Shown one piece after another: positions 23,660 to 35,903 of a stretch of 64,000 bases of DNA. Under the pieces are notes generated by a model. It did not search any database. It saw only the letters and a program-made list of their open reading frames with translations, and was not told the DNA's origin. Position 1 is the stretch's first letter, and every line of letters starts with the position of its first letter. This DNA comes from Isosphaeraceae bacterium EP7 (GTDB lineage: Bacteria; Planctomycetota; Planctomycetia; Isosphaerales; Isosphaeraceae). The stretch covers positions 3,297,174 through 3,361,173 of the forward strand of contig CP151667.1 in assembly GCA_038400315.1 (NCBI GenBank), written 5' to 3'. The position numbers were made by a program, and so were the translations under genes.

Positions 23660-23676
23660 TCCCCCAATCGCCCAAC

Positions 23677-23710
23677 GCCCCGCCGATTCCCCCCACGGAA
23701 TCGGCGGGGC
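23677..23710 (+). terminator. rRNA operon terminator
   Basis: Perfect 14-bp stem (23677-23690 with 23697-23710, 6-base loop) 18 bases after 5S, followed by ATTCGGCGTTT. Confidence 0.75.
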
Positions 23711-23785
23711 ATTCGGCGTTTCGAATGACGCGGCTTTCAATCTCCGATTACCCTCCTTCCCGGAGAGATCAGATTGAGGACGTCC

Positions 23786-32978: not shown

Positions 32979-33126
32979 CTTGGGATCGCTGCGCCCGCCC
33001 CCGATTCCCGCGTCTCCGACCGGGATTCCGGACCGGCCGCCGGCCGATTGTCGCTGACTTAAGGGCTCGTAGGGCCAAGCCCTTACCTCGACGGCGATTC
33101 GTCCTAGACCCGATCGGAGAGATTCG

Positions 33127-33777
33127 ATGCGCACCGCGATGCGTCCCCTCCTGGCGTTCGGCCTCATGGCCCTGATCTCGACCCCCGCCCTGGCCCAGCA
33201 GGGACGTGGCGGCTTCGGCGGCGGTTTCGGCGGCGGCGCCATGCTGCTGACCAATGAGGGAGTCCAGAAAGAACTGAAGCTGGAAGACGATCAGGTCAGC
33301 AAGGTGAAGACCCTTGCCGACGAGCTCCGGACGAAGTCACGCGACGGGTTCCAGTCGCTCCAGTCCCTCGAAGGCGAGGAACGCGGCAAGAAGATGCAGG
33401 AGCTGGCCAAGGAGAACTCCGAGGCCCTGCACAAGGGGCTCGCCGAGATCCTCAAGCCCGACCAAGTCAAGCGGTTCAAGCAGATCGAGTGGCAGCAGCA
33501 GGGGGCCAACGTCCTGGCCAACGCCCACGTGGCCGAGACCCTGAAGCTCAACGACGAGCAGAAGACCAAGGTGAAGGACCTGCTCGCCGGCCACTCGAAG
33601 CAGCAGCGCGAGCTGTTCCAGGCCGCCCAGGGCGACCGCGAGACCATTCGCGAGAAGATGACGGCGCTGCAGAAAGAGACCAAGGAGAAGGGCCTGGCCC
33701 TGCTCACCGCCGAGCAGAAGTCCTCGCTCGACAACCTGCTGGGCTCCCCCTACGAAGTCGTCCGCCAGCCCCGCTGA
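33127..33777 (+). CDS. Spy/CpxP-like periplasmic protein
   Basis: A 216-residue exported helical protein. The signal peptide (M-R-P-L-L-A-F-G-L-M-A-L-I-S-T-P-A-L-A) is followed by a Gly/Phe-rich linker (G-G-F-G-G-G-F-G-G-G) and two similar helical halves, L-K-L-E-D-D-Q-V-S-K-V-K at about 50 and L-K-L-N-D-E-Q-K-T-K-V-K at about 140, each ending near a Lys/Gln-rich helix. The pattern resembles LTxxQ (Spy/CpxP) proteins, which act as periplasmic chaperones or stress sensors. GGAGAG lies 6 bases before the ATG. The gene converges on the hairpin array. Confidence 0.75.
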   Translation: MRTAMRPLLAFGLMALISTPALAQQGRGGFGGGFGGGAMLLTNEGVQKELKLEDDQVSKVKTLADELRTKSRDGFQSLQSLEGEERGKKMQELAKENSEALHKGLAEILKPDQVKRFKQIEWQQQGANVLANAHVAETLKLNDEQKTKVKDLLAGHSKQQRELFQAAQGDRETIREKMTALQKETKEKGLALLTAEQKSSLDNLLGSPYEVVRQPR

Positions 33778-33806
33778 ACATGCCTCGAACGAATCAGATC
33801 AACACA

Positions 33807-33849
33807 GGCGGGCGGTGTCGCGGTCGAAAGGCCTCCGACGCCGCCCGCC
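33807..33849 (+). terminator. hairpin after the Spy-like gene
   Basis: A 14-bp stem (33807-33820 with 33836-33849; 13 Watson-Crick pairs and one G-T) 30 bases after the stop. The loop has no G-tract, so it is probably the gene's own terminator and distinct from the array that follows. Confidence 0.55.
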
Positions 33850-33942
33850 TTCGCGCGCCGTCGGTGAGCTCGAGTTTCCGCCCTGGTCTCGTCGGGGCCC
33901 GGCCCCGTTTCGCGGGCGAGGCATGCAGAGGGGCATGGACGC

Positions 33943-34291
33943 CGCAGGCCCCGAGCCGCCGGAGTGGGGGGGAACTCCGGTGGCTCGGGGCCTGCGAACG
34001 AGGGGGAAACCTTCGCGGCTCGCCGGCCGGGGGGGAATCCGGCGAGCCGCGAAGACCGCTCGAAGGTCGGGGGGGAAACCCTCGAATCTCGCCGGCGGGG
34101 GGGAACCGGCGAGGCGGGACGACGACGCGAGGGCGGGGGGAATCCCTCGCTGCTCATCGGAGGGGGGGGCTCCGGCGAGTCGACTCAAACTCCCGAGGGC
34201 GGGGGGATGTCCCGCGGGATGCGTCGGCCCGGGGGGAAGGCCGACGGCAGACGGAGGCGATGCGGGGGAGGGGGGGATTCCCCGCGTCGCC
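33943..34291. repeat. array of hairpins with constant G-tract loops and variable stems
   Basis: About 350 bases between two convergent genes hold consecutive inverted repeats. Stems (left/right): 33943-33965/33974-33996 (23 pairs, one G-T); 34011-34026/34039-34054 (16); 34060-34067/34078-34085 (7 of 8); 34088-34095/34106-34113 (8); 34127-34133/34144-34150 (7); 34153-34162/34170-34179 (one mismatch, one G-T); 34191-34199/34211-34219 (8 of 9); 34222-34229/34239-34246 (8); 34256-34269/34278-34291 (14, two G-T). Each loop is a run of 6-8 G with A-rich 3' flank. A weaker unit has GGGGG at 34002. Stem sequences are unrelated to each other. G-tract starts are spaced 36, 27, 40, 28, 38, 27, 39, 30, 39 bases. 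Open frames cross it on both strands, but the spacings are not multiples of three, which argues against coding. Confidence 0.9.
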
Positions 34292-34342
34292 GGGGCCCGC
34301 CGCGAACGGCGGCCCTGGTCGCTCAATGATCGGGGGGCCGGA

Positions 34343-34597
34343 TCAACGGCGGGCGGACCTGGAGAGCAAGCCCAGCATCGACAGCTCGTCGACGGCCCGT
34401 CGGAGGTCGGACTGAGGGCGCGCGACGAGGTCGGTCGGCTCGTCGATCTCGATGGTGGGATCCAGCTCGTTGTGCCCGAAGATCCAGGCCACGGGGGCGC
34501 CGAAGCGGGTAATCCGGAACTTCTCGCCCTTGGCGACCCTGTCCAGCAATTTCGGCAAGGTGGAATCGGTCTCGGGCAGATCGATGATGGTCGTCAT
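34343..34597 (-). CDS. Phd/YefM-like antitoxin (orphan)
   Basis: An 84-residue protein of the prevent-host-death family: M-T-T-I-I-D-L-P-E-T, L-P-K-L-L-D-R-V-A-K-G-E-K-F-R-I-T-R-F-G-A-P-V-A-W-I-F. In this fold the N-terminal part binds operator DNA and the C-terminal tail binds a toxin. The ATG at 34597 is chosen over 34606 because AGAGG lies 9 bases ahead of it, but abuts the other. No toxin gene follows; downstream on the same strand is the hairpin array. It may be a solitary regulator or the survivor of a toxin-antitoxin pair. Confidence 0.85.
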   Translation of the reverse strand: MTTIIDLPETDSTLPKLLDRVAKGEKFRITRFGAPVAWIFGHNELDPTIEIDEPTDLVARPQSDLRRAVDELSMLGLLSRSARR

Positions 34598-34901
34598 AAA
34601 CGTCATCCTCTCGATATGAGGGGTGAATTGAATCGTTGGAGAGGCGACGAGGCAGAGGCGGCCCTTCAAGGACTGCCCACTGGCCGCGGCACGCCGATTG
34701 AGGACGTGACGCGACGCTTGCCTCATCGTGAGGCATTGAGAGTCGTGACGAGGCCGGGGATTGGGGCCCGGACACTTGGATCTCGCACGAGCCTGAGCTG
34801 GATCGAGCCGTGAGATGTCGCCAAATCAGCGACGAGAGGGCCTAATCCGGTCCGCGGACTCGCGAGATGTGATTTCGAGCGGGGCAAGGCCCCGAAAGGG
34901 C
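34598..34901. other. intergenic region
   Basis: About 300 bases upstream of the antitoxin gene. An AT-richer patch (34590-34635) next to the start probably holds the antitoxin promoter; I see no clear hexamers or palindromic operator and no further gene. Confidence 0.4.
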
Positions 34902-35354
34902 TCAGACGCGCCGGGGTTGGTGCGCTTCGTCTGGCCCGTCGGCACCGGAGAGGTGCCTGATATAAGCGTACTCGGCCAGGCAGGGCGGGACCGCGGCCTG
35001 GAGCCGGACGCGGGCGGGGCGAGTGATCAGGCGCTCGATTTCCTCGGGCAGGGCCCGGGCGATCGAGCGTTCAAAGCCGAGCCGCTGTGCGAGCGTCGCC
35101 TCATTGGCGGAGTCGTCGACGACCTCTTCGGTGGGAGACTCGGCTTCCGCGTCTCTCTCGCCTTCGTGGTGGTCGAGTCCGCAGGCGATCCAGTCCCAGG
35201 GGCCGGACTGGGGATCGGTCTGGGCCGGGCACTGGCCATGGGACACCTCCGCCGGCTGATCCGGGGCTGCGGGCTGCGGAAACCGCGCCACGCCCAGGAT
35301 GAGCAGCGTCACCGCAATGCGGTGGAACAGGCGTCTCGGACCGATCCGATTCAT
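34902..35354 (-). CDS. hypothetical secreted protein
   Basis: A 150-residue open frame with a plausible signal peptide (R-R-L-F-H-R-I-A-V-T-L-L-I-L-G-V-A-R-F) and a mature part rich in acidic residues (H-H-E-G-E-R-D-A-E-A-E-S-P-T-E-E-V-V-D-D). I do not recognise it. A plus-strand frame of 194 codons covers the same stretch, but it has no ribosome-binding site or family features, so the minus strand is preferred. The weak Shine-Dalgarno (GGCGAG) leaves the call uncertain. Confidence 0.45.
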   Translation of the reverse strand: MNRIGPRRLFHRIAVTLLILGVARFPQPAAPDQPAEVSHGQCPAQTDPQSGPWDWIACGLDHHEGERDAEAESPTEEVVDDSANEATLAQRLGFERSIARALPEEIERLITRPARVRLQAAVPPCLAEYAYIRHLSGADGPDEAHQPRRV

Positions 35355-35480
35355 GCACGCTCGCCGATAATATCAGGTGGGGGATCTATGGAACTGTAGC
35401 GTTCACCCAAGAGATCGTCAAGCACTGATGCCCGGCTTGAACCGGGACAGGCCGAAGTTGCCCATCGTTCGGCCGTCAGG

Positions 35481-35903
35481 CTAGGCGTTCGACTCGTCGG
35501 ACAGCAGGTGGCGGCTGGACTGGAGGATCCGGTGGTGTCTGGCCTGGGTGGCGGCCGGCGGCTGCTCGGTCTTCTGGCGGAGGTCGGCCAGGTTGGCCTC
35601 GCAGTAGGCGCAGGCGATGACCTCGACGTGAAATTTGATGTATTCGGCCAGGTCGGGGTCCAGGGCGTCGAGCAGGAAGCTGCCGAGCTGCTGGCGATTC
35701 GGGCAGGTCAGCCGGGTGCGGCGCCAGATGGCCCCCAGCGTGTGCAGGCCGGCGTCTCCCCGGTTCTGTCGCGCGTCCTCGAGCTGGGCTCGCAGCTCGG
35801 AGGACTCGCGCAGGGCCTTCTCCGCGCGGGCCATTTCCTCGGGGGGGAGTGCGTCGGCCAGGTAGGCCCTCAGGAATTCCAGGTCGATCGGTCGGGCGTC
35901 CAT
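35481..35903 (-). CDS. zinc-finger-type anti-sigma factor
   Basis: A 140-residue soluble protein located 61 bases downstream of an ECF sigma gene and in the same direction. It has an L-T-C-P-N-R-Q-Q-L-G-S-F segment and a F-H-V-E-V-I-A-C-A-Y-C motif resembling, but not identical in spacing to, the H-x3-C-x2-C of zinc-binding anti-sigma factors. No membrane segment is visible, so a cytoplasmic regulator is likely. The assignment rests on the motif and on the sigma neighbour. Confidence 0.72.
   Translation of the reverse strand: MDARPIDLEFLRAYLADALPPEEMARAEKALRESSELRAQLEDARQNRGDAGLHTLGAIWRRTRLTCPNRQQLGSFLLDALDPDLAEYIKFHVEVIACAYCEANLADLRQKTEQPPAATQARHHRILQSSRHLLSDESNA

Follow-up and report, generated by a model that had tools for sequence, protein, structure and literature searches.

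A degenerate tandem array of G-run hairpins between two convergent genes of Isosphaeraceae bacterium EP7

What kind of element places ten or more hairpins, nearly alike in their loops and different in their stems, in the gap between two convergent genes? The question arose from an initial annotation, made from sequence alone, of a locus in a 64-kb window (the whole stretch of DNA analyzed here, part of a 7.0-Mb contig in a 7.2-Mb genome); positions below are those of the window unless a contig is named. The annotation took the stems to be completely variable around a constant loop, and proposed either selection on structure, as in a terminator or an RNA decoy with G-quadruplex potential, or a replication process that copies hairpins. 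We asked whether the hairpins are real, how they are related to one another, where else they occur, and which explanation fits them best.

Results

The array and its setting

Inspection of the window showed 10–11 hairpins with loops of G5–8 at 33943–34345. Upstream lies an LTXXQ-motif protein gene (PF07813, 33127–33777, + strand), itself downstream of a sigma-70 factor gene; on the other side lies the convergent gene of an 87-aa protein with no Pfam match (34343–34606, − strand), downstream of an ECF sigma factor gene. The convergent setting first described was thus correct, whereas the original count of about nine inverted repeats rises to 10–11, with two weak members (H2 and H11). A codon-usage gene caller placed no gene within the array, and we rejected a coding origin. 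The array sits between two terminator-like hairpins, both outside it, one for each flanking gene and each close to the stop codon of that gene: one at 33806–33850 (+ strand, score 14.4, ∼30 nt past the stop) and one at 34289–34319 (− strand, on which its loop reads UUCG). From the stop of the + strand gene to the start of the array is 166 nt; on the other side, H11 overlaps the stop of the − strand gene and H10 ends 52 nt beyond it. No T-run directly follows a stem anywhere in 33000–35500, as a canonical U-tract intrinsic terminator would have, and no sigma-70-type consensus promoter was found in the convergent gap.

Eleven G-tracts of 5–8 nt lie within 372 bp, all on one strand, with starts at 33966, 34002, 34029, 34069, 34097, 34135, 34162, 34201, 34231, 34270, and 34332. 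Their spacings (36/27/40/28/38/27/39/30/39, then 62) give a dimer of 63–69 bases, in agreement with the alternation of 27–30 and 36–40 bases and the unit of about 66 bases first noted; the additional tract reported at 34332 is present, in the weak H11. The proposed loop rule of 6–8 G followed by A holds in part: A directly follows 9 of the 11 tracts, C takes its place at H7 and H11, and tract lengths range from 5 to 8 G, with the reservation that G-run lengths may carry sequencing error.

A cross-pairing matrix and an alignment of the units divided ten of the hairpins into two alternating classes, A (H1, H3, H5, H7, and H9; motif ..CGCCGG/CCGGCG..) and B (H2, H4, H6, H8, and H10; motif ..CGAGGG/CCCTCG..). 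In class A, H1 (33943–33996) has a 23-bp stem (CGCAGGCCCCGAGCCGCCGGAGT - GGGGGGGA - ACTCCGGTGGCTCGGGGCCTGCG, the middle element being the loop), H3 (34011–34054) a perfect 16-bp stem with loop CCGGGGGGGAAT, H5 (34087–34114) 8 bp plus a T-G pair with loop CGGGGGGGAA, H7 (34152–34180) a stem with a T-G pair and one mismatch around a G8-rich loop, and H9 (34222–34246) a perfect 8-bp stem with loop CGGGGGGAA. In class B, H2 (33994–34016) is a weak pairing of GCGAACG with CCTTCGC around GGGGG that overlaps the ends of H1 and H3 and competes with them for the same bases; H4 (34060–34085) pairs TCGAAGG with CCCTCGA with one mismatch (loop TCGGGGGGGAAA), H6 (34127–34150) pairs GCGAGGG with CCCTCGC (loop CGGGGGGAAT), H8 (34191–34219) pairs TCCCGAGGG with CCCGCGGGA with one mismatch (loop CGGGGGGATGT), and H10 (34256–34291) has a 14-bp stem, again with loop GGGGGGGA. 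H11 (34327–34345), weak and unclassified, pairs TGATC with GATCA around GGGGGGCCG. Apart from H1, H3, H5, H9, and H10, stems are ∼6–10 bp long with at most one or two mismatches.

The hairpins are real

Each stem had been described as self-complementary, and this was borne out. The mean cognate-arm score of the array was 7.95, compared with 2.74 when right arms were shuffled (maximum 4.25 in 5000), 4.09 when arm partners were permuted among units (0 of 5000 permutations reached the observed value), and 2.39 for the flanks of the 62 other G6+ tracts of the window. Pairing is therefore far above that of shuffled sequence, a comparison that the annotation had named as able to refute it, and predicted RNA folding agrees (z = −7.0 for the + strand and −8.9 for the − strand, both beating all 100 dinucleotide shuffles). 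We conclude that the hairpin array is a real feature. In RNA of the − strand (C 46%, G 30%), nearly all C-tracts are predicted to be unpaired in the ensemble (0.56–1.0), except for a tract of five C that lies within a stem; in RNA of the + strand several G-tracts are predicted to be paired.

About five diverged copies of a double hairpin

The stems are not unrelated. Tandem Repeats Finder reported a period of 65–69 bp with 77–80% match over 34002–34179, which together with the alternation of the two classes contradicts the description of the stems as completely variable. Because classes A and B alternate, the array amounts to about five tandem dimers. The middle units are the most similar (U2–U3: 83%, z = 9.0; U3–U4: 73%, z = 8.0) and the end units the least (U4–U5: z = 0.9; U1–U5: z = 0.7); low-scoring pairs such as these cannot be called homologous when taken alone, and class was assigned mainly by alternation. 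The units thus stand head to tail with detectable homology, as in a minisatellite, and the array is a degenerate tandem repeat of about five diverged copies of a ∼66-bp double-hairpin unit. Such alternating homologous units point to an ordinary history of tandem duplication.

Mean pairwise identity in the class registers was 0.64–0.75 in the arms and 0.33–0.45 in the outer flanks; class A arms compared with class B arms gave 0.54. Every one of the ten units has a run of 5 G or more, within surroundings that are only 33–75% identical. Arms were more complementary to their own partners than to those of other members of the class (A: 0.88 vs. 0.74; B: 0.80 vs. 0.67). Shuffles reached the observed covariation in 1 of 500 cases for class B and in 120 of 500 for class A (not significant); when partners were permuted within both classes jointly, 6–12 of 14,400 permutations reached the observed pairing. 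Because the registers were chosen with pairing in view, which favors the result somewhat, we read this as moderate support for covariation of the stem arms within classes. The compensatory and G-T changes seen initially are consequently real but modest, and the proposed selection on structure survives as maintenance of structure, indicated by within-class covariation and the retained G-tracts.

Hairpins without U-tracts at gene ends

We classified gaps and genes in 864 kb of the same genome from codon-usage gene calls; both the hairpin caller and the gene caller were simple scripts with thresholds of our choosing. Per 10 kb, convergent gaps held 10.5 hairpins scoring at least 14, compared with 1.9 for tandem gaps, 0.2 for divergent gaps, and 0.14 for genes (14, 15, 1, and 10 hairpins, respectively, H1 and H3 being among the 14); the density of these strong hairpins in convergent gaps is ∼75 times that in genes. 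This is the pattern that terminators would give. The array itself consists of stable GC-rich hairpins downstream of genes, as a clustered or U-less intrinsic terminator would. One and the same U-less GC hairpin closes each of the four rRNA operons. Relatives' rRNA operons end in unrelated GC-rich hairpins, some with T-runs and some without. The copy within the window (23669–23718), after a 5S rRNA gene, has a C-run loop (GATTCC-CCCCAC-GGAATC), and its core is common to the four operons.

At least one hairpin scoring 8 or more was found in 42 of the 92 convergent gaps in the 864 kb, most of them having one and two gaps having three. The array gap has six, the most of any, the others having at most three, and no other of these gaps carries a comparable array.

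Restriction to one genome

The comparison set comprised this species, the only one of its genus in the set, and 44 other genomes of the family. As the initial annotation had suggested, we searched these relatives for G-loop arrays. The array was absent from all 44; a DNA search of the 45 family genomes returned elsewhere only short matches at chance level, and a stricter pattern scan of the same 45 matched only the genome that carries the array. Within that genome, a triple-G6 pattern occurred in the array and at one further site, C1:2124012, which showed no G-loop hairpins in the scan. Of the 45 family genomes, 43 have a match to the LTXXQ gene, with at most 50% identity in another species; the loci around the best matches in the family hold no such array, and a related-locus search with the LTXXQ protein found nothing. 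Nor was a comparable variable-stem array found in a sample of ∼391 genomes of the phylum or, among the matches listed, in scans of GTDB and viral contigs; the listed matches of these scans were simple G-rich repeats or tandem repeats whose units were identical or almost so, the exception being one viral contig (below). Plasmids and phages contained no DNA similar to the array. So far, the array has been found only in the genome of this species.

Several neighboring observations came from these searches. The nearest analogue found was on a viral contig (L257:2500–2760), where a few unrelated hairpins with C- or G-run loops stand in a row between genes. In the array's own genome, C1:161921–162113 (L103:1921–2113) is a perfect intergenic tandem array of a 25-bp unit, TGGAATGGGTTCGTTCCGCGCCGGC, whose units were flagged as self-complementary. 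The planctomycete MAG NC_groundwater_1042 has short direct repeats of TCGWAGGGGGGAAWC in several places (L162 ∼1336–1407, L189 ∼1673–1744).

Three further candidates were dropped. A dispersed family of G-loop hairpins was rejected: 3,021 G5+ tracts in 864 kb yielded 17 scattered hairpins outside the array, and those inspected were mostly intragenic or single terminator-like hairpins. A family-wide terminator loop motif, prompted by a relative's hairpin with a TTCCCCCC loop (L073), failed since GGGGGGAA sites in that genus formed no hairpins and rRNA terminators of relatives had no common loop. Sub-threshold Rfam matches (F6, Scr3202) appear to reflect long hairpins in general. In genus g14, GGGGGGAA outnumbers its reversed control by more than two to one (442 vs. 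171 in G023, 300 vs. 133 in G024), and the sites inspected there showed no association with hairpins.

Discussion

The likeliest readings of the array are an overgrown transcription terminator and a harmless palindromic repeat. The explanation we favor, with about even confidence, is that it is a terminator-type double hairpin amplified in tandem, acting as a back-up block to transcription in both directions. A double hairpin of one A and one B element (∼66 bp) would have been duplicated about five times in the convergent gap, beyond the ordinary terminator of each gene. The stems would later have drifted, each arm tracking its partner while the loop core of G6–8 was kept, either through compensatory substitution under selection for hairpins or through template switches that rewrote one arm from the sequence of its partner. 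The hairpins would stop polymerase from both directions. Leftward RNA would expose a C6–8 loop every 27–40 nt, possibly a structured loading site for Rho; the predicted unpaired C-tracts and the excess of C over G in that RNA, together with two Rho-domain genes in the genome, make a role of Rho possible. We infer transcription of the array, its termination activity, and any part played by Rho. Hairpin clusters have been reported as effective intrinsic terminators that do not require U-trails (Gupta and Pal 2021, PMC8355165), and a terminator fits the U-less hairpins at gene ends throughout this genome. On the other side, the two flanking genes are each already followed by a separate terminator-like hairpin and do not need the array to end their transcripts; the array starts 166 nt past the + strand stop, whereas most terminators in PMC8355165 lie no more than 80 nt downstream of the stop; in 864 kb, no second convergent gap carries an array of this kind; and hairpin termination alone does not account for the G-run itself.

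It is possible, though rather unlikely, that the array is instead a functionless palindromic minisatellite, duplicated by slippage or unequal exchange, with template switching in quasipalindromes keeping its stems perfect. Such switching is known to homogenize the arms of inverted repeats (PMC8604942, PMC7202029), and the long outer stems specific to H1, H3, and H10 come about more easily if one arm is copied from the other than through many paired substitutions. Restriction to one species, the greater likeness of the middle units than of the end units, and a second tandem hairpin repeat in the same genome, with identical units, also agree with neutrality. It has more difficulty with the G-tract, retained in all ten units despite flanks only 33–45% identical, and with the other G-tracts of the genome, which do not acquire hairpins. 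Compared with a terminator, a neutral repeat accounts no less well for lineage restriction and for the long outer stems, and less well for the constant loop. A replication process that copies hairpins at G-tracts in general is refuted, as only 17 of the 3,021 tracts outside the array have strongly complementary flanks. We also consider, as a doubtful reading, that the element centers on the G-run/C-run loop, which would serve either as a structured loading array for Rho or another C-run-binding protein or as the site of a local process in which polymerase doubles back at G/C runs and rewrites flanking arms; in the latter case, loops would stay while stems are remade.

Two accounts in which the array is a binding or structural element are weaker, since neither ANGGA nor canonical G-quadruplexes are enriched. 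That it encodes a noncoding RNA sponge for an RNA-binding protein such as CsrA is improbable: many hairpins sharing a loop do recall the layout of CsrB/RsmZ, and the genome has seven csrA paralogues over the Pfam cut-off, an unusually high number, but the decoy first proposed is disfavored by a single ANGGA in 403 nt (1.8 expected; GGA 16 vs. 12.7 expected), by the lack of a sigma-70-type promoter or T-run terminator in the gap, and by the predicted pairing of several + strand G-tracts. Very improbable is an element acting as DNA, in which an array of G-quadruplexes or cruciforms would block replication or keep convergent transcription apart. The tracts gathered on one strand and the 23-bp inverted repeat of H1 speak for it; against it, tracts 27–40 nt apart are far beyond canonical loops (four G3+ tracts, loops of 1–7 nt), only two loose matches with loops of up to 12 occur, which disfavors the suggested quadruplex potential in its canonical form, and other convergent gaps have no similar arrays.

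Among known systems, the array would work most like the terminator clusters of PMC8355165 and is built like organelle double-hairpin elements or palindromic repeats. With the former it shares adjacent GC-rich hairpins after genes and independence from a U-tract; those are mostly small clusters, whereas the array has at least ten hairpins, a tandem-repeat origin, a common G-run loop, and a position beyond the proximal hairpins. With the organelle elements (Volvox, PMC2670323; sponges, PMC2800124) it shares pairs of hairpins as units. Volvox elements have a common short loop (TAAA/TTTA) and stems of 4–37 nt (PMC2670323); organelle elements are dispersed and numerous, and those of sponges, the animals, have conserved stems and variable loops (PMC2670323, PMC2800124). 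The array in contrast is one local bacterial array with a G-run loop, absent from the 44 relatives, and does not belong with them because it lacks the dispersal that defines them. CsrB/RsmZ RNAs likewise have many hairpins, a shared loop, and variable stems, and the host has csrA, but the array differs in its G-run loop, in ANGGA content, and in having no visible promoter in the gap. REP/BIME are also intergenic palindromic units that occur in pairs; they have conserved stems and many genome copies, unlike the single locus with unconserved stems described here.

The array preserves, in compact natural form, about ten related hairpins whose arms have changed together around a retained homopolymer loop. 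Sequences of the array from further strains could separate selection on structure from template-switch copying, and the locus offers, in a little-studied group, a test case for whether transcription is stopped by hairpin clusters that lack U-tracts and by C-run loops.
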